The notes under the pieces: generated by a model
Told to the model about the DNA's origin: nothing
Seen by the model: only the letters and a program-made list of their open reading frames with translations
The model's database searches: none
Program-made: the position numbers and the translations under genes
DNA from: a virus
DNA length: 64,000 nucleotides
Strand: one strand, 5' to 3'
IMG/VR virus record: IMGVR_UViG_3300020394_000003
Location: 1 to 64,000 of that record
Shown: positions 9,839-25,700 of the stretch, one piece after another
How positions within the stretch are numbered: the stretch's first letter is position 1
Layout of the letters: every line of letters begins with the position of its first letter

Positions 9839-10021
9839 ATGGTAAAAGTCATGAAAAAGCTCTTAAGAAATATTTGTTATGTTGCATTTGGCATCAATTT
9901 GGCTATTTTAGGACTATCGGTCTACCTAGCAGACCTAAATTTACTTCTTCTCTCAGGCTCCTCAGCGGTGTTAACGTTGTTTGGGGCCACTTTTGTATTT
10001 TCAGAGGAACCTATTAAATGA
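9839..10021 (+). CDS. Two-span membrane protein, 60 aa
   Basis: Two hydrophobic segments (ICYVAFGINLAILGLSVYL and LNLLLLSGSSAVLTLFGATFVF) after a basic start. An ACTATTTACT element (9828-9837) lies 1 nt before the ATG and no ribosome site is visible, so initiation may be leaderless or coupled. Last gene before the L-x-E operon. Confidence 0.6.
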   Translation: MVKVMKKLLRNICYVAFGINLAILGLSVYLADLNLLLLSGSSAVLTLFGATFVFSEEPIK

Positions 10022-12429
10022 ACATTAATGATTGGCGCAGTTTTTTACAAGAATCTAAAGAATCATCGGAAAAACTTCTTAGAGAAGTCACCGAAGACGA
10101 GCTTGGACACATTCAGCAGGCGCTAGATGAAATGGATAATGAAGATCTTGCATTCAATAAAATTTTTGATGGCAAAATGCGCGTTATCTTAGACTTTAAA
10201 ACAATGGACAGAACAAGTGCTTTGGGCACTTTTGTAGATTTCTTTAAACTTAACGGTTATGAAGTTGATTGGAATAAGGGAATGCTTTCGGGCGTTCAAG
10301 AATTGCATGATACAAGTATAGCTAACCAAGTGGCCGGCCTAGGCTTGGGAACAGCTACCCAGAAATATAAGCCTCCACAAAAAAAGAAAATTCAAATGAA
10401 GGTTGGCAAGTACCTCAAAAAAGTTGCCGACCTTCATGCAAAACAACAACAGTACTTTCAGAAGATTGTTGCATATAGCAGAAAAAATCAAATCTATGGA
10501 GCGACCCCTAATACTCCCGGGCAAGTAACAGGCACACTAGAGAAAAATGCACTAACCCCCGAAGAGCAAGAAAACTATCGCAGAATTGGTGCACATTTAG
10601 ATATGTACGATCCAAAAGTTGGTAGAGGAATGGCTAAGCAGTTCGCTGAATATTGGGCTAAGAATGCTGAGTATATTAAAGACAAAATTGATACTCTGGA
10701 AAACGATAAGTACAGCATCGTAATCACGCGACATCCTATCGACGTTCTTCGTATGAGTGACTTTGATAGCATTACTTCCTGCCATTCTCCACCCTCTAGA
10801 GGCTCAGGAGAGAGCTATTACAAGTGTGCGGTAGCAGAAGCTCACGGACACGGCGCAGTGGCTTATGTGGTCCATACAGACCAGCTTAAGGAGTGGGGTG
10901 GGCGACCAGATTTGAGCCTTGAAGAGATTGAGGAAGAAATGCAAACAGGCGAAATTTTTGAAGATACAGAGAGGTATGATGCCGGCACGATCAATCCAGT
11001 TTCTCGACTGCGTTTACGACAAGTTAGATATTATGAAGCTGCAAAGGGTAGCCAGCCTAAAACAGACGATTATAAGAAGGCCGGCCGTAATCCTTTTGAG
11101 GGGATCCAGCTAGCAGTACCAGAAAAACGTGTTTATGGACAGAAAATCCCGGGCATTCGAGACCGTGTAATGAAATGGGTAACCGAGGCTCAGCAAGAAC
11201 AGATGCAGATTGTCAGAAGAGATTCAGAACCCGACAATGAAGAGAGAGTAATTCAGCTAGATAAATTTATTAAGTTTGGCGGCTCGTATGAAGATAACCA
11301 AATTTCTGGCCTTATTGCTGATTTATTTGGCAATGAAGGTGGTGATGGCCTTCCGGCGAACACTTCCGGTCGAGTCATACAAGATACAACCACAGAAGAT
11401 GAACTAGATGCAAATCTTGTTGGTGGCCTTATGGAACAATATGAAGAGGAATGTGAAAATACAGCTGATCAATGGAATTACAGATATCAAGCTGTAGAAG
11501 TTTCCTATGATGTTCAAGATGATGGTGGAGGAGGTGTCTACATTAGTGTCCGCGGCGGCATGTTAATTAAATGGGATCTAGACGATTTCAATAGTCTTCC
11601 GAATTATATGACCGCCGGCTATGCAGCTAGTGAGCTAAATGACGTGGGATACGGATATTTTGATGATGACAGTGCCTCAATAAGTCGTCGAGGCGATGAA
11701 GTTCATATGTATATCGGTATTGAAACTGAAATGATTCCTCGCACAAATGGAATGGGGTTTGCTGTAGACCCTGAAGATTTTGAGGATTATTGCGTTGGTC
11801 TAAACGAAATTGATGATATGTATGACGGAATTAAAGAGATGCTTACACGCTTCTTTAAACGTGAAGGACATATGGCCGGCTCTGCTTTTTACGAGCTAGC
11901 AGTTGAAGTTGTTGACAACGGAGAGTATGACGGATATGAGTATTCTGCATGGGATGTTGAAGCTGATGATCGGTATGATTCTTCTGAAGCTTATACTATT
12001 GAAGCTACAACAGCTATTGATACTCATGAGATTATGGATGAACTTCCAGAAATTAATCCTGAAGTGCTTTTAAAAATTATTCAAAGCAGAGAATATCAAA
12101 CTGCTGTTCGTGTTGCTTTATCTCGGGCAGCCCGGGAAGAATTAGGAACTGAGTATTATGTCGACACCAGTCACACTGCTCACCTTGATAGCTCAAATGA
12201 CGTTATCCATAAAGTTACTTTTAGTGTTGATCAAAGCAGCTACCCTGAACAAATTGAATTGTTTAAAAAGATTCTAGAGTTAAATGACAGCGAGGATGAT
12301 ATCTTATCAGAACTTATATTGCCGGTTTTGTTACAAGCTATAAATTCTCGCATGCCCTCTAGCATGCAGCAGAATCTAGATGAAAATGAAAGAATTGTAA
12401 AAAGCTGGAAGAGTTTCCTAAGAGGGTGA
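10018..12429 (+). CDS. Large putative internal head protein with L-x-E tail, 803 aa
   Basis: Starts MNINDWRSFLQESKE. The WRSFLQE-S segment resembles a T4 capsid-targeting sequence with an L-x-E cleavage site. The body is acidic. Residues about 240-285 hold a conserved-looking Cys/His block (SDFDSITSCHSPP...YKCAVAEAHGHGAVAYV). The rest is rich in Asp/Glu and Tyr, with a helical end that closes in NERIVKSWKSFLRG. I do not recognise the enzyme class. It leads a 15-kb run of genes with similar N-termini, which suggests packaging in the head and perhaps injection. It overlaps the previous gene by 4 nt. Confidence 0.7.
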   Translation: MNINDWRSFLQESKESSEKLLREVTEDELGHIQQALDEMDNEDLAFNKIFDGKMRVILDFKTMDRTSALGTFVDFFKLNGYEVDWNKGMLSGVQELHDTSIANQVAGLGLGTATQKYKPPQKKKIQMKVGKYLKKVADLHAKQQQYFQKIVAYSRKNQIYGATPNTPGQVTGTLEKNALTPEEQENYRRIGAHLDMYDPKVGRGMAKQFAEYWAKNAEYIKDKIDTLENDKYSIVITRHPIDVLRMSDFDSITSCHSPPSRGSGESYYKCAVAEAHGHGAVAYVVHTDQLKEWGGRPDLSLEEIEEEMQTGEIFEDTERYDAGTINPVSRLRLRQVRYYEAAKGSQPKTDDYKKAGRNPFEGIQLAVPEKRVYGQKIPGIRDRVMKWVTEAQQEQMQIVRRDSEPDNEERVIQLDKFIKFGGSYEDNQISGLIADLFGNEGGDGLPANTSGRVIQDTTTEDELDANLVGGLMEQYEEECENTADQWNYRYQAVEVSYDVQDDGGGGVYISVRGGMLIKWDLDDFNSLPNYMTAGYAASELNDVGYGYFDDDSASISRRGDEVHMYIGIETEMIPRTNGMGFAVDPEDFEDYCVGLNEIDDMYDGIKEMLTRFFKREGHMAGSAFYELAVEVVDNGEYDGYEYSAWDVEADDRYDSSEAYTIEATTAIDTHEIMDELPEINPEVLLKIIQSREYQTAVRVALSRAAREELGTEYYVDTSHTAHLDSSNDVIHKVTFSVDQSSYPEQIELFKKILELNDSEDDILSELILPVLLQAINSRMPSSMQQNLDENERIVKSWKSFLRG

Positions 12430-12439
12430 GCTAGTTATT

Positions 12440-12859
12440 ATGTCACTGTTTCAAGATAAATGGAGAGAGTTTTTGGAAGAAGATAAAAAAGGTAAAGATT
12501 CCGATAAGATTGCAAAGGCAGTGCTTTATAAGGACGATAAGGTTTTATTGCTTAAACGTTCTTCTTATATGAAAAAGCATGCTAAAGAATGGGATCTCCC
12601 GGGCGGGCACGTTATGGAAGGCGAAAATCTAGAAGACGGACTTTTGCGAGAAGTCTGGGAGGAGACCGGGCTTCACATCAAAAACCCAGTAAAGCTTCAT
12701 TCAAGAAAAAACGATACTTATTACATGGCAGACCTGCCAGATACAGAAATTAAACTCAGCGATGAACATACAGAGCATAAAATGTTCTCATTAGATGAAA
12801 TTGATGATATTAATTTGCCAGATAAATATGCTAGAGCAGTTAAGGATACACTATCATGA
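12440..12859 (+). CDS. Nudix hydrolase with L-x-E N-terminal tail
   Basis: 139 residues. A complete Nudix box (GX5EX7REUXEEXGU) is visible from GGHVMEGE to REVWEETGL, about residues 54-78. The N-terminus MSLFQDKWREFLEEDKKG matches the tails of neighbouring genes (WR-x-FLEE). Nudix enzymes hydrolyse nucleoside-diphosphate derivatives such as ADP-ribose, NADH or oxidised nucleotides; the substrate cannot be read from sequence. If the tail is a capsid-targeting peptide, this is a virion-borne hydrolase. Its stop overlaps the next ATG by 4 nt. Confidence 0.88.
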   Translation: MSLFQDKWREFLEEDKKGKDSDKIAKAVLYKDDKVLLLKRSSYMKKHAKEWDLPGGHVMEGENLEDGLLREVWEETGLHIKNPVKLHSRKNDTYYMADLPDTEIKLSDEHTEHKMFSLDEIDDINLPDKYARAVKDTLS

Positions 12860-13458
12860 ACAAGCAGTGGAAAAACTTTATTAAAGAAAAAAAGTACGCC
12901 GATATTTCAAAAGGCAAAGGTCAATGGACCGATATTGACAAATCTGATCTTCAAGGTCAAGAAAACATTGACTTATCTATGGAACTTTATGATTTAATTG
13001 CAACCGCATATGCAAATATTGGTGGAAACTTTGATTTTCAGTCACCAGATGACATTCCGGGCAAGTCTGATATGTGGACCGCAGTCGATGTTGATGGCGA
13101 CGATGAACCCGATGCTCTCCGAGTTGGTAAAACCAAACCATATGGTAAGAAATTAACTGCTAGTGGTCACGACGGCTCCAAGCCCGGTATTGATGCATAT
13201 GTTGCAAAAACAGCAGAAATGTTAAATACTAAAGGCTATTATGCAGAAATGTCTAAAGGTATCGCTCATATTATGATAAAATATCATCAAGTACCACATG
13301 TTGCAGACGAAGAAACAGTTAGAAAAGTTTTAGGAAAAGAGTTAGAATGGTTAGGCCCGCACCCCGAGGGCAAATACCCAGACTATAACGGATGGTATGT
13401 TCGTGATATTAGCGGACACAGAGAAATGAAAATCATGTTAGGGACACCTAATATTTAA
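12856..13458 (+). CDS. Putative internal protein with tail, 200 aa
   Basis: Begins MNKQWKNFIKEKKY, a tail of the local type (W-K-x-F-I-K-E). The body (SMELYDLIATAYANIGGNFDFQSPDD...WTAVDVDGDDEPDALRVGKTKPYGKKL...MLNTKGYYAEMS) has the look of a GNAT-type acyltransferase, but I cannot see a convincing acetyl-CoA loop. The C-terminus is GPHPEGKYPDYNGWYVRDISG. Treated as unknown. Confidence 0.6.
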   Translation: MNKQWKNFIKEKKYADISKGKGQWTDIDKSDLQGQENIDLSMELYDLIATAYANIGGNFDFQSPDDIPGKSDMWTAVDVDGDDEPDALRVGKTKPYGKKLTASGHDGSKPGIDAYVAKTAEMLNTKGYYAEMSKGIAHIMIKYHQVPHVADEETVRKVLGKELEWLGPHPEGKYPDYNGWYVRDISGHREMKIMLGTPNI

Positions 13459-13470
13459 AAGGAGTAGAAG

Positions 13471-13659
13471 ATGGCTAGAACAACGACAAAAGAACTCACA
13501 GAGCAAAATGAAGTTTTGCAAGAAAAGCTTGATAATGCTAGGAATAGAGCTAGTTCTGTCCTCGCAAAAATCGGAGGCCTGCGCGCTCATGTAGCAGCAA
13601 ACAATCCTACTAGTGAAGACGTTATTCGTATTCTTGATTCAATTATCGCAGATTCATAA
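13471..13659 (+). CDS. Small coiled-coil protein, 62 aa
   Basis: Heptad-like helix from residue 5 to about 40 (TKELTEQNEVLQEKLDNARNRASSVLAKI), then a short tail. AAGGAG lies 9 nt before ATG. Followed by a strong terminator, so it closes the first part of the internal-protein run. No family recognised. Confidence 0.6.
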   Translation: MARTTTKELTEQNEVLQEKLDNARNRASSVLAKIGGLRAHVAANNPTSEDVIRILDSIIADS

Positions 13660-13687
13660 TAGAATATTTTAAAAAATAATATTTTTA

Positions 13688-13717: not shown

Positions 13718-13748
13718 TTGTTTGAAAAACGGACTATTTATTACCGCT

Positions 13749-13988: not shown

Positions 13989-13989
13989 T

Positions 13990-14190
13990 ATGATAAAATG
14001 TTTTGGCACAGTACGTACCTCTAGTCCTTTAGACAGCTATATTGCATCTAGCACTGGACAATCTAATGAATCGGAGGCCCAATCAAATAGTTCAAGGGGC
14101 CTATCTGTACCTTCCGAACCAGAAACAAGAAATGGGCCACGTATAAAAGAGATCAAAAGAAGGTACATGATGATGATGAACACTATTTAA
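13990..14190 (+). CDS. Hypothetical Ser-rich protein, 66 aa
   Basis: ATG 13990 follows GGAGGAG and sits just after the previous stop. Low-complexity Ser/Glu/Asn middle and a basic, Met-rich end (RIKEIKRRYMMMMNTI). No recognised domain. Confidence 0.45.
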   Translation: MIKCFGTVRTSSPLDSYIASSTGQSNESEAQSNSSRGLSVPSEPETRNGPRIKEIKRRYMMMMNTI

Positions 14191-14223: not shown

Positions 14224-15405
14224 ATGGAACATATTCTAAAAAAATGGAATAACTATCTTGTCGAGTCTCACTCTAAAGAAGATGAGGAAGAGCTTAAAAA
14301 AATCAGCGATGAACTGAAAGGTGCAGTAAAAGCGCATCAAAGCCAAGCTGACCGCATTGATAAAATTCTTGACAGCACAGACGACGAAGAGCTTGAAGAG
14401 GGCAAAAAGAAAAATTGTGGTTGTGGTCAAGACCCCTGCATCACTTATGGTATTCAAGAAGTCAAAGGCGGTGACAAAGAAGACGGTGAGTATCAAGACA
14501 CTGTTGATGACTCTTTTGATGACGCACTAAATGAAGATGAACTAGATGAAAAGAAAAAGAAAGGTGGTAAGAAAGATGCTTGCTATCATAAGGTTAAATC
14601 TCGCTACAAAGTCTGGCCTTCAGCATATGCCTCGGGTGCCCTAGTAAAATGCCGCAAAGTTGGTGCTAAAAATTGGGGCAATAAATCTAAAAAGAAAAAT
14701 GAAAGTTTCGATATCTTTGGAGACATGGTAATTGAAGAAATCTTTACTGCTCTTATTAATGAAGAGGGTCTTAAAGATTGGTTTGATGATGCTGATGGAG
14801 ATGGTCAAAAAGGTTGGGAGCAGATTGGTGGCAAGTACGACGGTAAACCGTGTGCTAAGCAGCCCGGTCAAAAAACCAAGCCTAAGTGCGCGTCTCCTGA
14901 AAAAGCTGCATCAATGTCTAAGAAGGAAAAGGACAATGCAGCAAAAAGAAAGCGTGCTAAAGACCCTAACCCTAATAGAAAAGGCAAAGCTAAAAACGTA
15001 AACACAGACCCCAAGAAGGAATCAATTGAAATGATCACAAAACAAGAATTAACAGAAATTATCCTAGATGAACTAAGCGACAATGTTTACTATCATATCA
15101 CAGACGCAACTTACGATGATGGAACAGTTGCAGAAGATGTGGAATTTTGGGATGATGTTCTTGAAGAGGCCGAGTATCAGGGCCGCAAGGTAACTCTCAA
15201 TAAACCCATGAAAGGTGATGTTAAAAAGTCTAAGGTTTATGTAAAAAATGCTAAAGGCAATGTTGTCAAAGTCAACTTTGGTGACAAAAAGATGAAGATC
15301 AAGAAATCAAATCCCAAACGACGCAAGTCTTTTAGAGCTAGGCACAACTGCGATAACCCCGGGCCCAAGTGGAAGGCAAGGTATTGGTCTTGTAAAGCGT
15401 GGTAA
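14224..15405 (+). CDS. Putative internal/structural head protein with L-x-E tail, 393 aa
   Basis: ATG 14224 gives MEHILKKWNNYLVESHSK, a tail of the local type with YLVE-S; TTG 14203 in frame would hide the tail. Acidic N-terminal third with a Cys cluster (KNCGCGQDPC). Two blocks follow that I recall from marine phage virion proteins: ACYHKVKSRYKVWPSAYASG, and LKDWF..ADGDGQKGWEQIGGKYDGKPCAKQPGQ. A very basic C-terminus (KKSNPKRRKSFRARHNCDNP...ARYWSCKAW) could bind packaged DNA. Extra L-x-E sites (e.g. LNED, LINEE) inside the chain could be further protease sites. Confidence 0.7.
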   Translation: MEHILKKWNNYLVESHSKEDEEELKKISDELKGAVKAHQSQADRIDKILDSTDDEELEEGKKKNCGCGQDPCITYGIQEVKGGDKEDGEYQDTVDDSFDDALNEDELDEKKKKGGKKDACYHKVKSRYKVWPSAYASGALVKCRKVGAKNWGNKSKKKNESFDIFGDMVIEEIFTALINEEGLKDWFDDADGDGQKGWEQIGGKYDGKPCAKQPGQKTKPKCASPEKAASMSKKEKDNAAKRKRAKDPNPNRKGKAKNVNTDPKKESIEMITKQELTEIILDELSDNVYYHITDATYDDGTVAEDVEFWDDVLEEAEYQGRKVTLNKPMKGDVKKSKVYVKNAKGNVVKVNFGDKKMKIKKSNPKRRKSFRARHNCDNPGPKWKARYWSCKAW

Positions 15406-15406
15406 A

Positions 15407-16099
15407 ATGAAACTTCTGTTTGAAAATTGGCGAAGGTATTTAACAGAAGCTGCTGCTAGCCCGCAGGATCTTGCGGATAAAAATTACCATATTAAATTTA
15501 ATGAAGTCGGTGATGATTATGTTAACTGGGTATTGATGCATCAAGATAAACATGGTCTTTATGAAGCTGGCTCAATTCATATTCAGCGTACTGAGTATGG
15601 TAGGAAACAAAATGGGCCATGTCTTGATGCGTGGATGATAGAGGCTGTTGACGCACCAGACGGCTTTGGTCCTTTAATGTATGATGTGGCTATGGAGTGG
15701 GCTACCCAAAATGGTAGTGGGCTTATGCCAGATCGCTATGATGTGTCCGGTGATGCCCGAGAGGTCTGGAGATATTATATTTCTCATCGCAGCGATGTAA
15801 CAAATAGCCAACTAGATGATCTTAAAAACACGCTTACCCCTGAACCAGAAGATAATTGTGCTCAAAACTCTGCCGGTGTGCTTGATTGGCAAGATAGTCC
15901 GTTAAGTAAAGTTTATCAAAAGTCCCCCGCTTCAACAACTCAAGAATTAAAAGATATGAATCTCTGGAAAGAAGAAACACTAGACGAACGTTGTCAGAAG
16001 GGTTACAAAACTCACGAAAAACGTAAAACCAAAAAAATGTATGGTAAAACTTATAGAAACTGTGTAAAGGCAGAAAACAAAAATGAAACTTCTATTTGA
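15407..16099 (+). CDS. Putative internal protein, GNAT-like, with capsid-targeting-like tail
   Basis: Begins MKLLFENWRRYLTEAAAS; YLTE-A is an almost ideal T4 gp21-type cleavage site. The body (GSIHIQRTEYGR...DAWMIEAVDAPDGFGPLMYDVAMEWATQ...LMPDRYDVSGDAREVWRYYISHRSDV) resembles GNAT-like acyltransferase domains, which is a shape judgement only. The end CQKGYKTHEKRKTKKMYGKTYRNCVKAE is a basic Cys-bracketed module. The first 30 nt are nearly the same as those of the next two genes, and its end overlaps the next gene by 17 nt. Confidence 0.7.
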   Translation: MKLLFENWRRYLTEAAASPQDLADKNYHIKFNEVGDDYVNWVLMHQDKHGLYEAGSIHIQRTEYGRKQNGPCLDAWMIEAVDAPDGFGPLMYDVAMEWATQNGSGLMPDRYDVSGDAREVWRYYISHRSDVTNSQLDDLKNTLTPEPEDNCAQNSAGVLDWQDSPLSKVYQKSPASTTQELKDMNLWKEETLDERCQKGYKTHEKRKTKKMYGKTYRNCVKAENKNETSI

Positions 16100-17021
16100 A
16101 AATTGGCGTCAGTATTTAAATGAAAAAGTTTATGGAAACTTAATTTCTGTTTTTTCTCGTACAACTAGTGAAAAAAACATTGCCAATATTGTAAAGAATG
16201 GGTGGAAGACACAACAGTATGGGGATTATGGCCCAGCTATTTATATGATTTATCAATTTGATCCCAACGACCGGGCTGATAGAGGTTATGGCACCCATGT
16301 TATGAGATTTGGCCTTAAGGCTAACAATAAGTTGTTGGTCCTTGGAGACCCTGAAGCTGCTACAAAAATATTTGGAACCGACTTGTCTGTTGAAGAACAA
16401 GTAAAGACTATGGCGCCAGAGGCGCTTCAGGATAAAAAAATAGCGAAATGGATAGAGAAGTCTAGTCAAAGCGGCTCTTATCGCTTTATGTTTCCTGCCG
16501 ATGAGTTAAAAAAATATTTTAACGGGTTTTTAATGAAATCTGGCAAAGATGCGCATTTGGCTGTTATTTACGCTCCTGAAGATGTCTTGAATATGACTTC
16601 GTGGGCCAAGATCCCGAAAGATTATGAATTCAAGTCTGATGAAGAGATGCTTAAAGCTCAAACTGAAGAGGCTGCCATGGAGGATATTCGTGCGGCCGTA
16701 ATGGAAGAATACTTGGGTGAAGATCCATATGAATCAGACCCTAGCTTCGACCCTAGATTAGAAACTCCAGAACAAATTATTAAAATTGTACAAGAAGACG
16801 ACCCCGAAGTATCAACAATTGCAGATGTTGTTGAGTTGTTAAAACAAAAAGGGTATGATTATATAAGTTTAGAGCCGGCAGAAGGAGATCATGTTTCTAG
16901 AAGGGATGTAGAGCTTAGTCATACTAAAGATTTTTCCGATGTTCAATATGATAAAGATTCATTACAATGGAACAAAGAAATAGCCGGAATTAGATTACCA
17001 CAAAGGATATCGATGCAATGA
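16083..17021 (+). CDS. Putative ADP-ribosyltransferase-like internal protein
   Basis: 312 residues. Tail MKLLFENWRQYLNE at residues 1-14. Then LISVFSRTTSEKNIANIVKNG and YGDYGPAIYMIYQ: the spacing of a basic/Thr-Ser strand, a helix ('NI-xIVKNG') and a 'GPAIY' motif resembles the NAD-binding core of ADP-ribosyltransferase-like folds. T4 Alt is a head-packaged ADP-ribosyltransferase, so the tail fits. The family call is inference; I cannot place the catalytic Glu with confidence. The C-terminal third is acidic. Confidence 0.5.
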   Translation: MKLLFENWRQYLNEKVYGNLISVFSRTTSEKNIANIVKNGWKTQQYGDYGPAIYMIYQFDPNDRADRGYGTHVMRFGLKANNKLLVLGDPEAATKIFGTDLSVEEQVKTMAPEALQDKKIAKWIEKSSQSGSYRFMFPADELKKYFNGFLMKSGKDAHLAVIYAPEDVLNMTSWAKIPKDYEFKSDEEMLKAQTEEAAMEDIRAAVMEEYLGEDPYESDPSFDPRLETPEQIIKIVQEDDPEVSTIADVVELLKQKGYDYISLEPAEGDHVSRRDVELSHTKDFSDVQYDKDSLQWNKEIAGIRLPQRISMQ

Positions 17022-17650
17022 AACTCCTACTTGAAAATTGGCGAAAGCACATCATTATCAAAGAAGAAAAGGGTAAGCACCAGATCTACTGTGATATGGA
17101 TGGTGTTCTAGTTGATTTTGTCAAGGGAGCAGTTCAGCAAATTAACGCAGACCTTAAAAACGAATCATTAACCGGAGATGATATTGAAGCCCTTCGCAAA
17201 AAACTGTCTGAGATGGGTAAGAAACGCATCGAAGAGAAAGATCTACACATCAACTCGTCTTTGGCCTTAGATGAGGCTAGAAAGTACATGTACCGTCGTC
17301 TAGCGGGCGATAAGAAGTGGTGGGCGGAACTACCTTGGATGCCTGATGGCAAACGCCTGTGGAATTTTATTAAAAAGTATGATCCGCTTATTCTTACCAC
17401 ACCAATGAAAAACAAAGCCTCAGAAGAAGGCAAACTTATTTGGGTTGAGTATAATCTTGGTATTGCTCGAAGCAAAGTTTATTTTTCTCACAACAAATAT
17501 GAATATGCTAAAGATGGCGATAACCCTAATATCTTAATTGATGACTTTTTAAAAAAGAACATTATTCCATATCGCGAATCTGGAGGGATTGGTATTCATC
17601 ACACTAGTGCTGATTCTTCCATTGCGGAGCTTAAAAAACTAGGCTTTTAA
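17018..17650 (+). CDS. HAD-family 5'-nucleotidase-like protein with N-terminal tail
   Basis: 210 residues. Tail MKLLLENWRKHIIIKE, then CDMDGVLVDFVKG (HAD motif I, DxDGVLxDF, about residues 25-37), PLILTTPMKN (motif II, Thr) and NILIDDFLKKN (motif IV, Asp pair). The layout is that of the 5'(3')-deoxyribonucleotidase/NT5C-like group. A packaged nucleotidase could act on host nucleotides early in infection. It overlaps the previous gene by 4 nt and ends the first three-gene direct-repeat set. Confidence 0.8.
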   Translation: MKLLLENWRKHIIIKEEKGKHQIYCDMDGVLVDFVKGAVQQINADLKNESLTGDDIEALRKKLSEMGKKRIEEKDLHINSSLALDEARKYMYRRLAGDKKWWAELPWMPDGKRLWNFIKKYDPLILTTPMKNKASEEGKLIWVEYNLGIARSKVYFSHNKYEYAKDGDNPNILIDDFLKKNIIPYRESGGIGIHHTSADSSIAELKKLGF

Positions 17651-17710
17651 TAAAAAGCGGTTTTGTCAACTTTTTAACTATTTACTGAAGCAACAGAGGA
17701 GCCCATTTAA

Positions 17711-20008
17711 ATGAACTTCCAAGATTATAACTTATTAACACAAGATGAAATTGATGCCGTCGTCGCTGAAGTGTTACAGGAAAACGGCATTGGAAGAATT
17801 TCCGAAAAGGACGAGGATGACGAATATCTAGAAAAAGATGGACCCAAGTCTAAGAGAGATAGAACTGCCGGCGCAGGTACACCTACAATGGGCAGAGGAC
17901 AAACAACTTACGACCCCAAAGGCGGATTACAGTATACCGGAACTCAAACTGGCAAATTAGGCGCTAGTGGTAAACAGCGTGGAGAAAAGGTAACTGACGA
18001 TGATTTAGTCGACGGACCATCAAGGTTGCCTGCACCGGGTGCCGCTGGCAAGGCTGTATCAAAACTGGGTGATAAAATTGCAGGAGATCCGGGTGATGAT
18101 TCTATGATGGGCAAAGCGCGCCGTGCAGTCGGTGGCGCTGTAAAGGGCGTAGGAGCGGCTGCAGGGGCTGTAGCAGGAAACACAGGAACTAGTCCCGACA
18201 TGTATGCACAAGGCGCTCAAGACAAGGCTAAGGCCCGGGCAAGAGGTAATATTGGTCCCGGCGGTTTACAGAGAACTGCTGACAAGGTAAACCCAAATGA
18301 TGCCTATGATGCAGGCGATGGCAGAGAGGGCTCCGCAGGTCGCGAAGGTGCCAAAAGAGTTGATATGACCAACACTTGGCACAACCCGGGTGCGTCATCA
18401 GTGCCACAATCTGTCAAAGCTGATATTAACTCAGTTTTTCCCTCTAGAATGCAAATGAGTATTGAGGACGTTCTTGACGGTTACCTTAAGTTAACATATG
18501 GAGGTGATGAATCTTCAATGTCACGCGAAAATGCTAGAGCGCATTGGTTGAGTAGATTTAAGCAGTTGGTAAACAGAATTGATCAACAAAAAGATCCAGA
18601 AATGGTATCCGCAGCTGAAGATGCTGTCGCTCGACAATTAGACTCTATGTTGCATAAAGCTGTGCTATTTGGCCAAAACAATAACGTACCTCCAGAAAAA
18701 ATTCAACAAGCCGTCAATGACGACACACCCGTTCCACCACCGGATCGCGATTCGGAAGAAGGCGGGGGTGGTTCAGATATTCCAATTCCTGTCAACAAAA
18801 AACTTAGTGGTGATCAAAGAGATCAAGCTGGAATGTCTAAGGGAGCCGCAGGCAGTTTGGCTAGCCAGCTATCAAAACTTTTTCCCGATGTTGACAAAAG
18901 TATTATCACCCAGATTCTTAAAGATGTGGCTGGCCAACTAAAAGCTAACAATATCCCAGTTCAAGAAGGAAAACGTTTAGCTTTCAGACTTATTTTAGAG
19001 CAACAAGTTAAAAGCATGATTCTTAATGAAAAACGGTATGATACTGACAAGGACGCCGAAATAGTCAAAACGCTAGTTCGTCAACTTGCACTTGGTAAGG
19101 GAGAAGTTAAGAAAGTCAATAAGGTTAAAGGCGTTGTTAAGAAACCAGCCCTAGTAGCCGTCAATAAAGATGGTGTACCAAGAGTATACTCTGTAGATAA
19201 AGGAAAGGATGGGCAAGACTCTGCTGAAGCTGGATTTACTCAGGCTAAAAAGTGGGCGTCGTCCGGGGGTAGTCAAGACTCAGACCTGTTCAAAAAATTC
19301 AAAGAAACTCTCAAACGTCTAGATTTACATACTTCAGAGGGTCGGGCCGCGGCTAAGGAAGACGACCAAGCTTTCTTAGGTGCTTACAGATATTATAAAG
19401 CAATGGTTGTCGCACTTAAAGCTTTAAAAACAGATCGACTTGAAAAAAGTACTCCTAAAATTATGAAGATGGTCGAGCCATTAAATGAAAAGTCGTTTGA
19501 GCATGAGGGAGCCGCTGGTAAAGATTTTAAAACTTGGCTAGCTAACATGATTAACATTTTTAAAGAAGAAGGTTTTGCTGATAAAGAAACTGGTATGGGT
19601 AAAGATACACCAGCTAAAGACAGAGCAATGAAAGCAATGAGAGCAGCAAGAAAAGGCCGTATGCCGGGTTCTGACTCTAAATCTCCTGAAACTAAGGCTG
19701 ATAAAGTTGCCGCAGGTGAAACCGAAAAGGCTGCAGGAGCAGAAACATCTAGGCGTAGCGGTTCTGCTGGTACCATCAATATGAAATCAGTAGTGGGTCC
19801 TCGCCTCAAGCAAGGTGGAATCGATCTCAAATCTCCAGAAGGCCAAGCCTTGCAGAAAAAAATGCAGAAAGTTATTCGACGATTTATTAAGAAAAATCTT
19901 CAAAGAGTTGGTAAGGGAGATCTTAAAGTTATTGCCGAAAACAAACAACTTCAAGCAGAGCTTAAGAATATAATTTTGGAACATTTAAGACAACATGAGC
20001 TTCTATAG
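17711..20008 (+). CDS. Large putative internal/structural protein, 765 aa
   Basis: No recognised family. The N-terminus (MNFQDYNLLTQDEIDAVVAEVLQENG) has an L-Q-E site. Residues about 35-250 are Gly/Ala/Lys/Asp-rich and low-complexity. The C-terminal half is helical and lysine-rich, with several L-x-E sites (LILEQ, MILNE, PLNEK). An ACTATTTACT element (17677-17686) lies upstream, and GAGGAG provides the ribosome site. The composition suits a prohead core or DNA-associated head protein. Confidence 0.6.
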   Translation: MNFQDYNLLTQDEIDAVVAEVLQENGIGRISEKDEDDEYLEKDGPKSKRDRTAGAGTPTMGRGQTTYDPKGGLQYTGTQTGKLGASGKQRGEKVTDDDLVDGPSRLPAPGAAGKAVSKLGDKIAGDPGDDSMMGKARRAVGGAVKGVGAAAGAVAGNTGTSPDMYAQGAQDKAKARARGNIGPGGLQRTADKVNPNDAYDAGDGREGSAGREGAKRVDMTNTWHNPGASSVPQSVKADINSVFPSRMQMSIEDVLDGYLKLTYGGDESSMSRENARAHWLSRFKQLVNRIDQQKDPEMVSAAEDAVARQLDSMLHKAVLFGQNNNVPPEKIQQAVNDDTPVPPPDRDSEEGGGGSDIPIPVNKKLSGDQRDQAGMSKGAAGSLASQLSKLFPDVDKSIITQILKDVAGQLKANNIPVQEGKRLAFRLILEQQVKSMILNEKRYDTDKDAEIVKTLVRQLALGKGEVKKVNKVKGVVKKPALVAVNKDGVPRVYSVDKGKDGQDSAEAGFTQAKKWASSGGSQDSDLFKKFKETLKRLDLHTSEGRAAAKEDDQAFLGAYRYYKAMVVALKALKTDRLEKSTPKIMKMVEPLNEKSFEHEGAAGKDFKTWLANMINIFKEEGFADKETGMGKDTPAKDRAMKAMRAARKGRMPGSDSKSPETKADKVAAGETEKAAGAETSRRSGSAGTINMKSVVGPRLKQGGIDLKSPEGQALQKKMQKVIRRFIKKNLQRVGKGDLKVIAENKQLQAELKNIILEHLRQHELL

Positions 20009-20510
20009 TATTAAAAACAACTCAGGACTTGAGCTTGAAGAAATGGAAAAGTTGCTAGGCAACTTTATGCCTTTTTCTAAAAAACGTATGGGTTATGATC
20101 AGCCTGTTAGTATCACTTTTGAAACAGACGAAAGAAATGGTGGAAACATGCTAGGCAAAACTGCATACTATAATCCTGAAGATATGAGTGTTACAATATT
20201 TACAGACTATCGTCATCCAAAAGACATGATGCGGTCTCTTTCTCACGAATTAGTTCATCATACACAGAATTGTAGAGGTGAGTTTAATAGAGAGATGAGC
20301 GTTGGCGAAGGTTATGCTCAACAAGATGAACATTTACGAAAAATGGAAGAGGAAGCCTACTTAGTAGGCAATATGACTTTCCGTGATTGGGAAGATACAT
20401 ATAAACACGATTTGGCTACTAATTATACTGACGTTAATTCACTAGTCACTGAAAAGAGAGAGCGCGTTTTTAGCGCATTAAAAAATAAAATCATTAAGGA
20501 GAACAAATAA
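19995..20510 (+). CDS. HExxH metalloprotease-like protein, 171 aa
   Basis: SLSHELVHHTQNCRGEF at about residues 80-96 contains the zincin signature HELVH, with a possible downstream metal ligand in HLRKMEEEAYLVGN. A small metallopeptidase is likely; the substrate is unknown. It lies inside the putative internal-protein operon, overlapping the previous gene by 14 nt. It lacks an obvious L-x-E tail, so it may act in processing rather than being cargo. Confidence 0.75.
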   Translation: MSFYSIKNNSGLELEEMEKLLGNFMPFSKKRMGYDQPVSITFETDERNGGNMLGKTAYYNPEDMSVTIFTDYRHPKDMMRSLSHELVHHTQNCRGEFNREMSVGEGYAQQDEHLRKMEEEAYLVGNMTFRDWEDTYKHDLATNYTDVNSLVTEKRERVFSALKNKIIKENK

Positions 20511-20511: not shown

Positions 20512-21381
20512 ATGATTCACGGTAAAAAGAGAAATAAAGACCTTTTTAGACGTTTAACTGAAAGCTGGGGCTACACAAAGCCCGGTGAGGCTACCCCCCT
20601 CGATGAGCAAATGGCCGAAGAAGTTGAAGACGTTGTAGAGGCTAAGGATGAGGAAGAACTTGAGGAAGGCGTTTTTGATGCTAACCACTATTGTATTCAC
20701 CATGGCGGAGTTCATCACAACGGTAGTGTTGAGATGGCAGAGGCTGTCCAGCACGTTAAGCCCGATGCGAACGGTCACATTAGCCACTATGATATGAAGC
20801 TTGAGGATGGCACTATTCTTGAGAACGTTGCTGCTGAAGATATTCAGGTAACTAACGCTTCTCTAGCTAAAGAGCACCAGATGAAGCGAGATCATGATGC
20901 AATGAAGGACAAGGACGAAGACGAAGAGCTTGACGAAGGTGGAGCCGCCCATAAGAAGGACCCCAGAAATCGCAGACAAGATGATGAAAGAGCAAGACCC
21001 ATGGAAGAAGCTGAGGAATTAGAAGCTGAAGCTGAAGAATTAGAAGAAATGGACATGAGTAGATATACTCAAAGCGATTCAATTGATTCTCACGAGGTAG
21101 CGCAAAAATTAGAAACGCTAACAGGCAAAGTAATTGATGATGATATCGTGAAAAACATGCTCAGAACTTACGGCGCCGGCGGCCCCGATGCCCTAGAACA
21201 ATTTTCATCAACCGTAGAGTCGATAACAGGAAAAGCTATTGATTTTGACGTTTTAAGAAACATGCTAGATCACGGAACAGGCGTTAAAATCAGAGAAAGG
21301 CAAGAGCAGAACGAAGGTCTTGAAGAGGCAATCCGTCGTGTCGTATCAAGGGTGTTAAGCGAAATTAAACCCACTAAGTAA
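20512..21381 (+). CDS. Acidic putative internal protein with L-T-E site, 289 aa
   Basis: MIHGKKRNKDLFRRLTESWGY shows a basic tail with LTE-S near residue 17. A His-rich segment (NHYCIHHGGVHHNG) follows, then long Glu/Asp-rich runs and a C-terminal repeat: 'LTGKVIDDDIVKNMLRTYG' and 'ITGKAIDFDVLRNMLDHG' are two copies of one helical unit. The composition resembles scaffold/core proteins. Confidence 0.6.
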   Translation: MIHGKKRNKDLFRRLTESWGYTKPGEATPLDEQMAEEVEDVVEAKDEEELEEGVFDANHYCIHHGGVHHNGSVEMAEAVQHVKPDANGHISHYDMKLEDGTILENVAAEDIQVTNASLAKEHQMKRDHDAMKDKDEDEELDEGGAAHKKDPRNRRQDDERARPMEEAEELEAEAEELEEMDMSRYTQSDSIDSHEVAQKLETLTGKVIDDDIVKNMLRTYGAGGPDALEQFSSTVESITGKAIDFDVLRNMLDHGTGVKIRERQEQNEGLEEAIRRVVSRVLSEIKPTK

Positions 21382-21397
21382 ATTAAGGAACTCTACG

Positions 21398-21661
21398 GTG
21401 AAAAAAGTTGATTTAAACAGAATGACCCGTGAATTTCTTATGGGTAATGAATTGGAAGAAGGTCGCAAAGCTGACGCTTGGGATTATCTTCACAGCATTG
21501 CTGAAACACTTCAGTCGATTACCCCGAGGACTAAAGCCGGCGAACGTAAAGTTCAGCTGGCCTTAGAACACTTGCGTTCATTGCGTCGTCATACTAGACG
21601 GCTTGAAGAGCGTGTGAAAATCCTAGAAGAACAAGTACAAGTACTAGAAGAGGGAAGCTAG
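21398..21661 (+). CDS. Small coiled-coil protein, 87 aa
   Basis: GTG start with AAGGA 8-9 nt upstream. FLMGNELEEG carries an L-E-E-G site near residue 20. The last 40 residues form a clear heptad coiled coil (LRRHTRRLEERVKILEEQVQVLEEG). It lies between two putative internal proteins and is immediately followed by the next start. Confidence 0.6.
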   Translation: MKKVDLNRMTREFLMGNELEEGRKADAWDYLHSIAETLQSITPRTKAGERKVQLALEHLRSLRRHTRRLEERVKILEEQVQVLEEGS

Positions 21662-24600
21662 ATGCGAAGATTATTATTAGAAGGTGGCGTTGCAGGTCAC
21701 CTTTCACATCTTTATGATAATAGGCAACTTACTGCCAATAAAATGGGTAAAATTTTATCTTTAGCATCAAAGGGCGAACTTGAAGGTACTGAAAAGACTG
21801 ATGGTTTTAATATTTATTTAGGATATCGCGATGGTGAAACTCGATATGCACGTAACAAAGGTGATATGCGCGCCGGCGGGCGAGTTATGCAAGACTTGCT
21901 TGATCGTGTATTTGCCGGCGGTGATCAAATTAAAGATGTATATGTTAAAGCATTTACAGCTTTTGGAAAATTTGTAGAAAGACTCCCCCCGAATGTTCAA
22001 GCGAATATCTTTGGTGAAAATGGAGAAATTTTTTATAATACTGAAATTCAAGGCCCGGGCGCTAATAATGTAGTTACTTACGACGCTAATGTGGTTTCTA
22101 TTCATCATGGAAATCATAAAAGGTATAATCCAGATACGGACACTGTTGAAATCGTTGATGCAGAAGCAAACTCTAAAGCTCTTGATCGTGTGTTGAACTC
22201 TATTGAGCAAAAAGTTGCAGGCGATGATTTTCGCGTTGCACGAACAGCAATGATGCGTTTACGCAGATTAGATGATGACACTGATTTAAGAATTGTACTA
22301 GCTAAAATTGAAAAAGCTGGTTTTGTTGGCGACATGACTATGGAAGAGTATCTTGTCTCGAAAGTAACGCCTCAAGTTGAAGCTCGTTCTCCGCATTTAA
22401 ATCCTGCCATACATCAAATGATGGTTAATTATATTTTAAATATTCCCGGTGAAGACGGTCAAAAAGTAAAACTAAACAACATCTATAAAGGCTTTCCTGT
22501 TGATCAAAGAAAACTGATTCGAAATATTGTTAAAGAAGAAGGTGGTTCAATGGTTAAAAAATCAATTTGGCCTATTGAAACAGCTATTCATGATTTTGCA
22601 GTCGAGCTTCTTAGAGGCATGGAGAGTGCATATATTCTCGATAATAATTCTCAAGTCAATAGACTTAAAGCAGAGGTTGAAAGCGCTATTCGTGGTATTC
22701 AGTCTTATAAAGGTGAAGGTGATGATATTGCTAGGAGTGTTTTAGCTCAACAGCTTGAAAAGATCAAGCATTTAGATAATATCAATTCAACCGTAGAAGG
22801 ATTTGTATTTAATTACGAAGGTCAAATGTACAAGTTCACTGGTAATTTTGCCCCTATCAATCAAATTTTAGGATTATTTAAGTATGGCCGCGGTGGAGTA
22901 CCGGCAATCAAAAAGCAAGATTCATCAGAGCCAGAAGAACTTGATGAAATGGAAGAAGTGCCAGCCGGAGCAACTGAAACAGTTGTAGCTGTATTACCGG
23001 GCGCTTTTAAACCACCTCATCGAGGTCATTTTGCAATGGCCTTACACTATGCTTCTATTGCAGACTCGGTAAAAGTCTATATCAGCAGAATTCCTAGAGA
23101 AGGAGTTGATTTTAACGTATCAAAAGCAATTTGGAATATGTATGTTCAAGGTTCGTCAGACCCCAACGCTTCCAAAATTGAAGTAATCCCAGAGCCCTCC
23201 GACAATAGTTCTCCTGTCGGTGCGGCATTGGAGTATGTTGGCAACGAGCATGGAAAACCACATTTGGCTCAGCCGGGTGAAGCCGTAATTCTCGGTGCTA
23301 GCAACAAAGCAGATAAAAGAGGGGCGCCTGACTTCATGAGATTCAAGAACGCCGGCAAATACTTTGCTCCGGGCGTCAAGGGCGGCGATCCTGACCCTTC
23401 TACTGGTGTACCTACCCTTACAGTGCAGAATGTATTCAAAGTCAGTCCAGAAGCCCTCAGCGCATCTGATTTAAGAAAGGCGATTCGCAATTCAGATCTG
23501 AAAACGGTTATGAGTTATATGCCTAAAGATGTTGCTAAAAATGAAACTGCTTTACAAGCTATATTTGATATTTTAGATATTGGTGCAGCACCTAGTGTGG
23601 ATACGCCATCTATTTCAGAAACTCTGATGGCTGTTGTAGAAGAAGTTCTTAACGAAAAACTAAAACCTTCCCAAGGTGCCGGAGCCTATGTAAAAGATTT
23701 TTATAAATCTGACGCTCCCCAATTTAAAGGCAAGGATAAAAAGAAAAGACGTGAAATGGCAATTGCTGCCTTTTTGCAAGATAAAGAAGAAACGAACGAG
23801 GCTGTTCGACTAGACGAAAGCTCTAGGAGTTTGTTACAAAACCCAGAATATATCACAAATGTTCTTGGTATTGATATGCCTCTTAACGAATCATATCCAT
23901 ATTCTGCACAATTAAATGAACAAATTGTTAAAGAGCAGATGTTGCTAGAAGGTTTTTTTAATGATCTTAAAGCTATGGGTGGGCAAGCAAAACAACTATT
24001 TGCCGCTCTCAAAGAATTGCTTACTGATCCAAAAAGAGTTCAATACTGGACCAACGCCGCTTATCGTATGATGGTAAAGGCTCCAATCAATAAAATTTAT
24101 CAACTGCTAAATTATATTATTGAACAACTATCAACTATGCCGACTATTGTGCAATGGGCTCAAAAATCAAAAGCCATGCTACAAGGCATTCAACAAAGCG
24201 TTGGTAATGCAAAAGGCTGGCAGGGCGCCATGCTCATGACATCTCTCGGGCTTGGATTTAAATGGTTGTGGTCTCAGGTTGGAGAAATTATTGATGGGGC
24301 TGTTGGAAAAATTGGTGAACTAGTAGGAGCCAAGGCGATTCAAGAAATTCAAAAATATATTCAAGATACTGTTATTGGTAAAGCTTGGAAGGTAATTCAA
24401 GACAAATTTACTGGCTTAATAAAACAAGCCGGTGCAGCGTTATCTGGGGTCGGTGCTTGGTTCAAGTGGGCTAGCACAGCCTTCCAAGGTGCACAGTTTG
24501 TCTTAGACGCCCTTAAGGGTACCCTAAGCCGGTTTGGAGGCCTACGGGTCAATGAGTTATCGGCCATGGCCGGAGGAGCCGTTCAAGGGGCTGCTATCGA

Positions 24601-24760
24601 CTCAGATGAAGGCGATACACCATGGCGAGGATTAGACGCTAACAAAGAAAATAAGAAGCAGGAAAAAGCACAAAGACTCAAAGGTACAAAACTTACTAAA
24701 GAAGAGCTAATTCAAAAAGTAATGGACTACTTATTAGTACAGGAAAAAAGCTATGGATAA
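21662..24760 (+). CDS. Fusion of KxDG ligase-like and HxGH nucleotidylyltransferase-like domains, 1032 aa
   Basis: Part 1 (about 1-420): KTDG with K45 matches motif I of covalent nucleotidyltransferases (DNA/RNA ligases). IFGENGE near 117-123 resembles motif III of RNA-ligase-2-type enzymes, EGFVFNY near 379 motif IV and YKFTG near 390 motif V. Part 2 (about 440-620): LPGAFKPPHRGHF with H453 and H456 is the HxGH signature of NMNAT/cytidylyltransferases, and LSASDLR near 600 is the matching ISxTxxR-type motif. Part 3 (about 660-1032) has L-N-E sites and long amphipathic to hydrophobic helices, e.g. GAMLMTSLGLGFKWLW. MRRLLLEGG at the start gives an L-x-E-G site. Fusing both nucleotidyl-transfer chemistries is unusual; NAD or nucleic-acid repair roles are possible. 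Confidence 0.75.
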   Translation: MRRLLLEGGVAGHLSHLYDNRQLTANKMGKILSLASKGELEGTEKTDGFNIYLGYRDGETRYARNKGDMRAGGRVMQDLLDRVFAGGDQIKDVYVKAFTAFGKFVERLPPNVQANIFGENGEIFYNTEIQGPGANNVVTYDANVVSIHHGNHKRYNPDTDTVEIVDAEANSKALDRVLNSIEQKVAGDDFRVARTAMMRLRRLDDDTDLRIVLAKIEKAGFVGDMTMEEYLVSKVTPQVEARSPHLNPAIHQMMVNYILNIPGEDGQKVKLNNIYKGFPVDQRKLIRNIVKEEGGSMVKKSIWPIETAIHDFAVELLRGMESAYILDNNSQVNRLKAEVESAIRGIQSYKGEGDDIARSVLAQQLEKIKHLDNINSTVEGFVFNYEGQMYKFTGNFAPINQILGLFKYGRGGVPAIKKQDSSEPEELDEMEEVPAGATETVVAVLPGAFKPPHRGHFAMALHYASIADSVKVYISRIPREGVDFNVSKAIWNMYVQGSSDPNASKIEVIPEPSDNSSPVGAALEYVGNEHGKPHLAQPGEAVILGASNKADKRGAPDFMRFKNAGKYFAPGVKGGDPDPSTGVPTLTVQNVFKVSPEALSASDLRKAIRNSDLKTVMSYMPKDVAKNETALQAIFDILDIGAAPSVDTPSISETLMAVVEEVLNEKLKPSQGAGAYVKDFYKSDAPQFKGKDKKKRREMAIAAFLQDKEETNEAVRLDESSRSLLQNPEYITNVLGIDMPLNESYPYSAQLNEQIVKEQMLLEGFFNDLKAMGGQAKQLFAALKELLTDPKRVQYWTNAAYRMMVKAPINKIYQLLNYIIEQLSTMPTIVQWAQKSKAMLQGIQQSVGNAKGWQGAMLMTSLGLGFKWLWSQVGEIIDGAVGKIGELVGAKAIQEIQKYIQDTVIGKAWKVIQDKFTGLIKQAGAALSGVGAWFKWASTAFQGAQFVLDALKGTLSRFGGLRVNELSAMAGGAVQGAAIDSDEGDTPWRGLDANKENKKQEKAQRLKGTKLTKEELIQKVMDYLLVQEKSYG

Positions 24761-25700
24761 AATTGAATTACAAAGATTAGAGTTCCTTAAGGAACTTAAA
24801 GAGCGAAAAGTTTTACGTGAAGCAGTAAGAAAAGCTATTCGTATTGCATTAGAAAAAAGAGAACTAGCAGCTTATAACAAAGAAGTGGCTGAGTCGCAAA
24901 GACTTGAAGAAGAGGCAGTACTTAGAGGCTATCTACGACAGTACCTTAAAGAAAGTGCAGCAACCCAAGACAACGATCCCTCACCTCACAGATCAACTGG
25001 TATCAATGTACTATCCGATTTACTTAAAAAGATCATCCCAGTTCTTGAAGATGACTATAAAATCTTAACGACCGATGCAGATCAACGATCATCATTTCGA
25101 GCACATGTTATTCATGGTGTAAAAAATTCCTTAGCGCCACTCCAAGCTACAGACGATGTTGGTCCTGATGCTGATACTAGTAATCAATTAGAAGAAGACG
25201 TGGGAGTTACCGTAGGCGGTGGCGATGAGGACGAAAGATTCATTGACATCGCTGATGATGGTGATACAGGGGAAGAGCTATCTCCCGAAGAAGAATTTGC
25301 TACCGGTCTTAGCGGACAAGATCTAACAGGTCGAAATATGGCATATTCTTCATTTAAAAAGATTGAAAGAAACATCTTAGATGCTTATGAGCTTTTGAGC
25401 AATGACGAAGATCGAGAGTTGTTCTATGACTATCTTATTACCAACCTTAAGCTTTATTTTGATAAGTTTGAAGATGAGCTAGCAGGTAATTTAGAAGAAC
25501 CTACAACTCCTGAGTATGAAGACGCCGCTGCAGAAGCCGGTGATATGGATGGAGATCAGGAAGATTTTTCCCCAGCAGAAGAAGAGCCAGCGTTAGACGA
25601 TGAAGAACCACTTGAGGAAAAGTGGTATACCGCTAGCATCAGTTTTGGTGGCGGTGCTGGAGATTCTAAATTTAAAGTCAAGGGGCCTAAGAAGAAATAA
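24753..25700 (+). CDS. Acidic putative internal/scaffold-like protein, 315 aa
   Basis: An N-terminal basic helical stretch (residues 1-65, LKELKERKVLREAVRKAIRI) ends in YLKE-SAAT, a site of the local L-x-E type. A helical domain (LKKIIPVLEDDYKILTTD) and a second (SSFKKIERNILDAYELLSND) follow, separated by Asp/Glu/Gly-rich linkers. It ends in a short basic segment. It overlaps the fusion gene by 8 nt and closes the internal-protein run. Confidence 0.6.
   Translation: MDKIELQRLEFLKELKERKVLREAVRKAIRIALEKRELAAYNKEVAESQRLEEEAVLRGYLRQYLKESAATQDNDPSPHRSTGINVLSDLLKKIIPVLEDDYKILTTDADQRSSFRAHVIHGVKNSLAPLQATDDVGPDADTSNQLEEDVGVTVGGGDEDERFIDIADDGDTGEELSPEEEFATGLSGQDLTGRNMAYSSFKKIERNILDAYELLSNDEDRELFYDYLITNLKLYFDKFEDELAGNLEEPTTPEYEDAAAEAGDMDGDQEDFSPAEEEPALDDEEPLEEKWYTASISFGGGAGDSKFKVKGPKKK

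Follow-up and report, generated by a model that had tools for sequence, protein, structure and literature searches.

The internal proteins IPI, IPII and IPIII of phage T4 are described as injected anti-restriction proteins whose common feature is the leader only (PMC12373910, PMC9391042), and each of them blocks a GmrSD restriction enzyme (PMC12373910). According to T4 suppressor experiments, residues 4 and 7 of that leader mainly govern targeting, and residues 8 and 10 processing (PMC9026906). The prohead proteases of T4, phiKZ and SPN3US cleave after glutamate, that of SPN3US at A-x-E (PMC5694885). In purified virions of S-SM1, T4-GC190 was among the 41 proteins found by mass spectrometry (PMC3037559). 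Here we describe an operon in bases 1-64000 (the window, 64,000 nucleotides in all) of the 161,704-base virus record IMGVR_UViG_3300020394_000003. The genes of this operon form a same-strand run from 10018 to 25700, in which several neighbours overlap by a few bases, and a number of them open with a common short N-terminal leader. We consider it probable (about 0.83) that the products of the operon are internal, head-loaded proteins of an uncultured T4-like phage, with the leader as their capsid-targeting sequence, which is cut by an S77 protease, and with cargo that is injected.

A repeated N-terminal leader in the window phage

Genes were predicted with our own simple caller, which gave 166 N-termini and 51,588 amino acid (aa) residues for the whole record. 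Six genes of the operon start with Wxx[FY][LI]xE, in all cases within the first 14 residues: WRSFLQE-S (10018), WREFLEE-D (12440), WKNFIKE-K (12856), WNNYLVE-S (14224), WRRYLTE-A (15407) and WRQYLNE-K (16083). The gene at 17018 carries a spacing variant, WRKHIIIKE-E, which is two residues longer. One copy lies outside the window, WRSFLKE-N at genome position 94677, in the N-terminus MMNKHMVAEWRSFLKE.

A first-pass annotation of the window, made by a model from the sequence alone, had listed at least ten consecutive leader genes. The six genes above stand, with 17018 as a variant, and the remaining listed genes do not. Nor are the leader genes consecutive, since among the 16 open reading frames (ORFs) called from 10018 to 24753 the small ones at 13471, 13791 and 13990 and the genes at 17711 and 19995 are without the motif. 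The genes at 20512 (LFRRLTE-S), 21398 (LEE-G) and 21662 (LLLE-G) have the L-x-E only, and their aromatic part is absent; the YLKE-S of 24753, taken to be N-terminal, sits internally at residues 64-68.

The strict motif Wxx[FYHW][LIV]xE was found in 7 of the 166 N-termini (the six operon genes and 94677) and nowhere else in the 51,588 residues. After shuffling of residues 2-25 the mean number of matches was 0.06 and the maximum 2 (2000 trials). With the general T4-style motif [FYW]xx[FYHWL][LIV]xE, 8 of the 166 N-termini matched, where 0.89 would be expected from the frequency of its 16 matches in protein interiors; one of the 8, at 91763, is probably due to chance. In 240 randomly sampled viral loci, 4 of 2801 called genes had the W form, compared with 7 of 166 here (p=4e-7), and 20 of the 2801 had the general motif.

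Register with the T4 targeting sequence and head genes of the window phage

The N-termini of T4 IPII and IPIII read MKTYQEFIAE-A. When aligned by hand on the glutamate, Y4, F7, I8 and E10 of T4 correspond to W8, Y11, L12 and E14 of MKLLFENWRRYLTE-A, the leader of the gene at 15407; MKLLFENWRRYLTEA is the leader sequence carrying W8, Y11 and E14. Since the residues coincide in register, the leader matches all four positions implicated by the T4 mutants. This four-position match (aromatic, aromatic, aliphatic, Glu) holds for the six operon genes and for 94677, with 17018 off in spacing. The propeptide of T4 gp23, 65 residues long, ends in SFLTE-A and resembles KYLTE-A. Within the first 22 residues of the 64 genes called in a 50-kilobase (kb) stretch of T4, the general motif picked out IPII and IPIII only. 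The same motif was found in 1 of 31 genes of P-SSM2, 2 of 34 of HTVC008M, 2 of 37 of immuto and 1 of 41 of Mel-JY01. In S-SM1 the only such gene is SSM1_190 (1 of 68 genes in one 49-kb stretch, 0 of 20 in another); it is T4-GC190, a cytidylyltransferase, and its N-terminus is MKKFSAFLNE-A. The mature cargo itself gave nothing better than E=0.3 against IPI-III, when 14 proteins without their first 16 residues were compared by blastp.

The window phage has the genes for T4-type head assembly. A gp21-type protease, which the first-pass annotation had suggested looking for elsewhere in the genome, is encoded at genome positions 107826-108425 (Peptidase_S77, family match 3.4e-31), with the N-terminus MKKVLLREYYELCE-GG. 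A gp23-type capsid protein is encoded at 120668-122503 (Pfam Gp23, 4.4e-70), and a tail sheath (1.3e-64) and a tail tube (1.2e-25) are also present. The gene just upstream of the capsid gene, at 119529-120641, stands at the place expected of gp22, the scaffold protein, and had no PHROG match. Its C-terminus, SERMKLLAGIKK, is like SRWQKLAGIIK and ERMKKLAGIVK, the C-termini of the genes at this place in Flavobacterium phage immuto and Microcystis phage Mel-JY01, respectively. The capsid protein is 46-48% identical to those of the latter two phages over the aligned pieces. Hand alignment to SFLTE-AEIGG of T4 gp23 predicts capsid cut sites at KELLRE-S in the window phage, KQIVSE-A in immuto and KQLISE-A in Mel-JY01.

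On these grounds the leader, 11-16 residues ending in aromatic-x-x-aromatic-[LI]-x-E, would act as a capsid-targeting sequence. It would probably fold as an amphipathic helix and bind the prohead scaffold core, and the gp21-type S77 protease would probably then cleave after the glutamate during head maturation. Once mature, the cargo, which comprises the Nudix and HAD enzymes and a number of other proteins, would exit with the DNA at infection and serve early takeover or counter-defence. We infer virion presence, core binding, cleavage, injection and the early role in this phage, injection and function from T4, whose IPI-III are injected anti-restriction proteins.

Other repeated N-termini, FDLKKFLVENKLT and FRRMQKLAGIITES, were seen in immuto (locus L026) at 8807, 16676, 22632 and 23633. 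FRRMQKLAGIITES resembles RWQKLAGIIK of the C-terminus at the gp22 place, as if cargo mimicked the end of the scaffold.

The leader on unrelated proteins in IMG/VR

IMG/VR was searched with a degenerate DNA pattern for MKL[LI]xENW, in which nothing was forced after residue 9. At least 120 stretches with at least 170 matches were obtained, and all counts derived from this search are counts among the matches listed. The tail x[FYHWLI][LIVM]xE, though unforced, was present in 124 of the 170 matches; the other 46 include five ORFs shorter than 40 aa and spacing variants. With 1-3 residues allowed before the glutamate, and with duplicates and proteins shorter than 60 aa dropped, at least 128 unique proteins fell into at least 83 cargo families (blastp at 1e-4 without the first 15 residues), 61 of them with a single member. 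The alignment of 83 representatives reads MKLLxENWRxYLxE, and the consensus stops at residue 14. Pfam at E 0.001 named 13 families, each with one or two representatives, and at most 14 of the 83 representatives had any match; GNAT acetyltransferase, peptidase M23, RNase_T exonuclease, NUDIX, Zeta_toxin and 5'-nucleotidase are among them. In the close relatives L007 and L008 this operon is also present, and other cargo follows the leader at the equivalent place; L008 holds five MKLLFENWR genes and three other leader forms.

The HAD enzyme gene at 17018 has relatives with and without the leader. At 11 of 16 other IMG/VR loci the protein starts at the catalytic domain, with DMD at residue 6-10 and no leader; because several of these are near-identical, they amount to about five distinct sequences. 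The remaining 5 of 16 were unclear to our script or had a longer or different N-terminus. In the six leader-bearing HAD genes DMD stands at residue 26 (window phage, L007, L008), 25 (L067, L087) or 23 (L120). The immuto homologue has a different extension, MKKVMGNLADLLLEE-S.

Among 23 leader-bearing records of at least 90 kb, picked by the DNA pattern or the HAD search and not by the tail (L106 is without it), S77 was found in 18 and Gp23 in 16. All 13 leader records above 124 kb, a cut-off picked after the result was known, encode both. A random baseline, not habitat-matched, was drawn from 160 of the 240 rows of two random-pattern scans; among its 14 records, each 100 kb or longer, S77 occurred in 3 and the leader in none (Fisher, 18/23 vs 3/14, p=0.001; with the 124-kb cut-off, 13/13 vs 3/13, p=5e-5). 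The reading of the leader as a head-targeting tag, already put forward in the first-pass annotation, is thus supported by the S77 and gp23-type genes, the T4 register, the portability of the leader and the S-SM1 precedent. The enzyme-like nature of two cargo proteins, which look metabolic, would also suit an ordinary auxiliary operon, in which the common N-terminus would serve dimerisation or degradation and have nothing to do with the head. We regard this as hardly credible, as the leader associates with S77/Gp23 phages, stands in register with the T4 targeting sequence and has a virion precedent in S-SM1.

A tandem leader peptide searched by tblastn against the phage collection (E up to 10) gave 22 records and no convincing leader (best E 0.5, 41%), in a search where an exact 14-residue match was estimated to score near the limit and near variants could escape. 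The same DNA pattern gave 49 matches in 84,980 bacterial and archaeal genomes, 3 of them with the tail. A bacterial motif was rejected: 22 of the 49 matches are one internal peptide (ENWR..PF...GK), which we take to be from glucose-6-phosphate dehydrogenase, and many others are short or internal ORFs. Two of the three tailed matches lie on one contig, where four W-type leaders stand beside a leader of the lysine-rich (K-type) class described below; this contig looks like phage DNA in a metagenome-assembled genome (MAG). Leader genes were seen in contigs filed as bacterial, L163 at 986-2843 (Opitutia MAG) and L173 at 1284-4315 (WOR-3 'chromosome'), and these contigs are probably phage DNA in the assemblies.

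Promoter-like sites

The top 8-letter word upstream of genes was ACTATTTA, which 9 of the 52 upstream regions contain (0.17 expected). It has 16 sites (for example 9828, 17677 and 126373) on the + strand, which carries nearly all genes, and none on the - strand; 12 of the 16 lie within 150 nucleotides (nt) upstream of a start. The word stands ahead of 9839, 13791, 14224, 17711 and the tail sheath gene, and ACTATATA stands ahead of the tail tube gene and a baseplate gene. Within the operon region the promoter-like sites, all on the + strand, are at 9828..9835 (ahead of the operon; the ORF at 9839 follows at a distance of only 11 nt, so the site could drive the genes from 10018 on), 13733..13740 (inside the operon), 14182..14189 (42 nt before 14224, within a small ORF) and 17677..17684 (34 nt before 17711). 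Of 125 leader genes in relatives, near-duplicates counted, 21 have ACTATTTA in the 100 nt ahead of them; on the opposite strand it was never found. As ACTATTTA and ACTATATA occur before both operon and tail genes, they point to, and do not prove, a timing shared by the operon and the virion genes. ACTATTTA is a candidate late promoter unlike that of T4.

Points against head loading, and other explanations of the leader

Several observations weigh against head loading. The general motif misses T4 IPI (MKTFKEFTST), and the one or two genes per stretch that carry it in immuto, Mel-JY01 and HTVC008M have no known role. The isoelectric point is at or below 5.6 in 9 of 14 proteins, compared with 8.9-9.5 in the basic T4 internal proteins. 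Among the 23 leader records, 5 are without S77 and 7 without Gp23, all of at most 123 kb, and the habitat of the random baseline counts here too. Neither the capsid gene nor the scaffold gene has an exact ACTATTTA immediately upstream. The T4 late promoter TATAAATA was tried and rejected for lack of enrichment: the two strands hold 5 and 10 sites, where 6 would be expected on each. The leader glutamate is followed by A, G or S in 34 of the 124 leaders, and by an acidic residue (E or D) in 44. The first 26 nt show synonymous conservation, which a purely peptide-level signal would not need.

The first-pass annotation had expected A, G or S after the cleavage site. In the window phage this applies to 3 of 8 W-type leaders, and in relatives to the 34 of 124 just given. 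As the P1' residue is seldom T4-like, cleavage may be partial or of different specificity. The same residues would fit a docking peptide that stays uncut and brings its proteins to the prohead core, or to some other assembly of the phage, with E14 in the binding surface. So would the C-terminus of the 803-aa protein at 10018, WKSFLRG (12406-12426), a leader copy without the glutamate, which has its counterpart WKQFLRG in the 770-aa homologue of L008. However, of all single residues at positions 10-14, none of which was forced, glutamate occurs most often (127 of 166 listed), as expected of P1, and it is the residue after which the T4, phiKZ and SPN3US proteases cleave (PMC5694885). LIE-9 fits the T4 logo (PMC9026906), and matching sites are seen by inspection in the phage's own major capsid protein (LLRE-S) and protease (LCE-G). 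We therefore judge an uncut docking peptide unlikely and prefer a leader that is cleaved.

At the nucleotide level, 26 genes from 19 IMG/VR loci and 16 cargo families share an identical start of 26 nt, ATGAAACTCCTACTTGAAAATTGGCG, and the gene at 17018 opens with the same block (17018-17043). Three different Leu codons are kept in this block across unrelated cargo. Synonymous identity was 0.573 overall against 0.449 expected from cargo codon usage, with the excess mainly at codons 2, 4, 5 and 6 (the codon-5 Leu is identical in 0.75 of pairs vs 0.21 expected) and slight at codons 3, 7 and 12 (codon-12 Leu, 0.28 vs 0.21). Between HAD orthologues 13 of 14, 10 of 12 and 10 of 12 leader codons were identical, compared with 0.50-0.64 in the cargo. 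Such figures would be expected if the conserved 5' end were a DNA or RNA element, either a recombination block or a translation signal, and the peptide were incidental. Yet the Leu codons at position 12 agree hardly more often than by chance, while at the residue level Y/F, L/I and E persist, and leaders of very different DNA (WREFLEE, WKNFIKE and T4 MKTYQEFIAE) retain the same four positions. In addition, the leader codons of the orthologues of 10018, the Nudix gene and 12856, three leader genes with differing DNA, showed no clear excess (4/7, 4/6, 2/5), and no conservation was seen in the sequence upstream of leader genes. An incidental peptide is accordingly very improbable. The likeliest account is a leader that is passed on as a cassette through recombination and in addition works as a peptide, and its start may have a second, nucleic-acid role.

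Genes of the operon

All operon genes lie on the + strand, and the operon DNA had no match in the phage records. The first leader gene, 10018..12429, encodes the 803-aa protein with the leader MNINDWRSFLQE (10018-10053), followed by S. Its homologues are leader proteins of 770-822 aa in L008 (47%) and in L047, L055 and L059 (22-24%); no Pfam family above the cut-off, no PHROG and no match in phage records were found, and its AlphaFold model, with a predicted local distance difference test (pLDDT) score of 49.6, was too poor for a structure search. The next gene, 12440..12859, with the leader MSLFQDKWREFLEE (12440-12481), is a Nudix hydrolase (Pfam NUDIX 3.5e-18, phrog_1198 2.7e-18), as the first-pass annotation had named it. 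It matches T4 NudE by blastp (1.1e-6), and NudE itself has no such leader. At 12856..13458 a 200-aa protein starts with MNKQWKNFIKE (12856-12888), and its homologue in L008, at 4967, starts with MNNKKWKQFLTE-A.

The gene at 14224..15405 encodes a lysine-rich protein of 393 aa of the phrog_727 family (1.2e-57) with the leader MEHILKKWNNYLVE (14224-14265), followed by S; from residue 120 onward it has relatives in 380 phage records, mostly cyanophages, and T4-GC119 is a homologue. It is followed at 15407..16099 by the gene for a 230-aa protein with no Pfam or PHROG family, whose leader (15407-15448) is followed by A. The 312-aa protein of 16083..17021, with the leader MKLLFENWRQYLNE (16083-16124), is 40% identical to a partial L119 protein, and no other IMG/VR relative was confirmed. 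For the ART-like label it had been given no family above the cut-off was found in Pfam or PHROG, and its fold (pLDDT 52.6) was too poor for a structure search. The gene at 17018..17650 encodes a HAD 5'(3')-deoxyribonucleotidase-like enzyme (phrog_2643 6.2e-21) with the variant leader MKLLLENWRKHIIIKE (17018-17065), and here the earlier label of HAD nucleotidase is confirmed.

The genes further downstream have no W leader. The 765-aa protein of 17711..20008 has the N-terminus MNFQDYNLLTQDEIDAVVAEVLQE-N, and its position is conserved in L007 and L008. A zincin-like protein without leader is encoded at 19995..20510; HELVHH was seen by eye, and MPTase-PolyVal (0.013) and Peptidase_M91 (0.0071) were both below the cut-off. 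The acidic protein of 20512..21381, with LFRRLTE-S, has an N-terminus conserved in L007 and L008, and the 87-aa protein of 21398..21661 has TREFLMG and LEE-G close to its N-terminus. At 21662..24760 a multidomain protein of 1032 aa is NMNAT/cytidylyltransferase-like, with a KTDG segment seen by eye; by tblastn, residues 441-706 matched NMNAT-annotated genes (4e-6) and residues 4-408 cytidylyltransferase-like ones (8e-26). It carries a short extension, MRRLLLE, ahead of GGVAGH, which is missing from the L025 homologue (MGGVAGG). Homology of this protein to S-SM1 GC190 was considered and is unsupported (E=0.14).

Elsewhere in the window, about 20 consecutive genes at 36134-53281, several of them glycosyltransferase- or sugar-nucleotide enzyme-like by eye, form a surface-sugar-like cluster unusually long for a phage. 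A tmRNA gene with the tag ANNNNHFEQRLAA lies at 27059-27390.

A second, lysine-rich leader class

The pattern MKITKxQLxxII gave at least 120 stretches with at least 214 matches, and in 210 of the 214 matches listed residue 14, which was unforced, is E. At least 186 unique proteins of at least 60 aa carry this K-type leader, in at least 149 families. Among the matches listed, S77 was found in 17 of 18 K-type records of at least 100 kb and Gp23 likewise in 17 of 18, the same record being without both. The two leader types occur together in at least eight loci, sometimes in one operon, and up to 8 K-type copies were found in 9 kb (loci L237, L276 and L113). The window phage has looser K-type forms at genome positions 101329, 107430, 160575 and 160892, none of which is matched by the strict pattern; 107430 is just upstream of the protease gene. 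To judge from these sequences, the K-type class behaves like the W-type.

It is about an even bet whether marine T4-like phages share a general head-loading tag code, with at least two portable leaders, MKLLxENWRxYLxE and MKITKxQLxxIIKEE, which would be passed as cassettes and would mark up to 232 families (83 + 149, on condition that no family is in both sets). If such a code exists, the injected protein set of uncultured phages could be read from sequence. The W-type leader would by itself make it possible to recognise from sequence the genes with which uncultured marine phages act earliest on an infected cell, something long missing, and the products of the genes bearing it could be taken directly as candidates for counter-defence and takeover.

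Comparison with known head-loaded proteins

No description of the W-type leader was found in literature titles and abstract openings. Like T4 IPI-III, the proteins described here have a short N-terminal leader on otherwise unrelated proteins and form a cluster of variable cargo; with IPII and IPIII they share the aromatic-x-x-aromatic-[LI]-x-E register, and with T4 a gp21-type protease and a gp23-type head. The leader here is longer (11-16 residues), based on tryptophan and often preceded by an MKLLxEN front. The residue after the glutamate is often acidic, and the DNA of the leader start is conserved too. In contrast to the T4 internal proteins, the cargo includes Nudix and HAD enzymes, reaches 803 aa, is mostly acidic and belongs to far more families. 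What is new relative to T4 is therefore the tryptophan-based tag, the mostly acidic and partly enzymatic cargo and its great diversity. The internal-protein logic of T4 would here be scaled up, from a few characterised proteins to one tag on at least 83 unrelated families.

In SPN3US and phiKZ a gp21-related protease also trims N-terminal propeptides from ejected proteins after x-x-E, but these propeptides often exceed 100 residues, and A-x-E or S-x-E serves as the motif (PMC5694885). The nearest virion precedent is GC190 of S-SM1, an enzyme-like protein with the equivalent leader MKKFSAFLNE-A that was detected in virions (PMC3037559). It differs in being a single case in its stretch and in having phenylalanine in place of tryptophan, and it was published as a structural protein, in an account that, as far as it was available, does not mention a targeting leader (PMC3037559).

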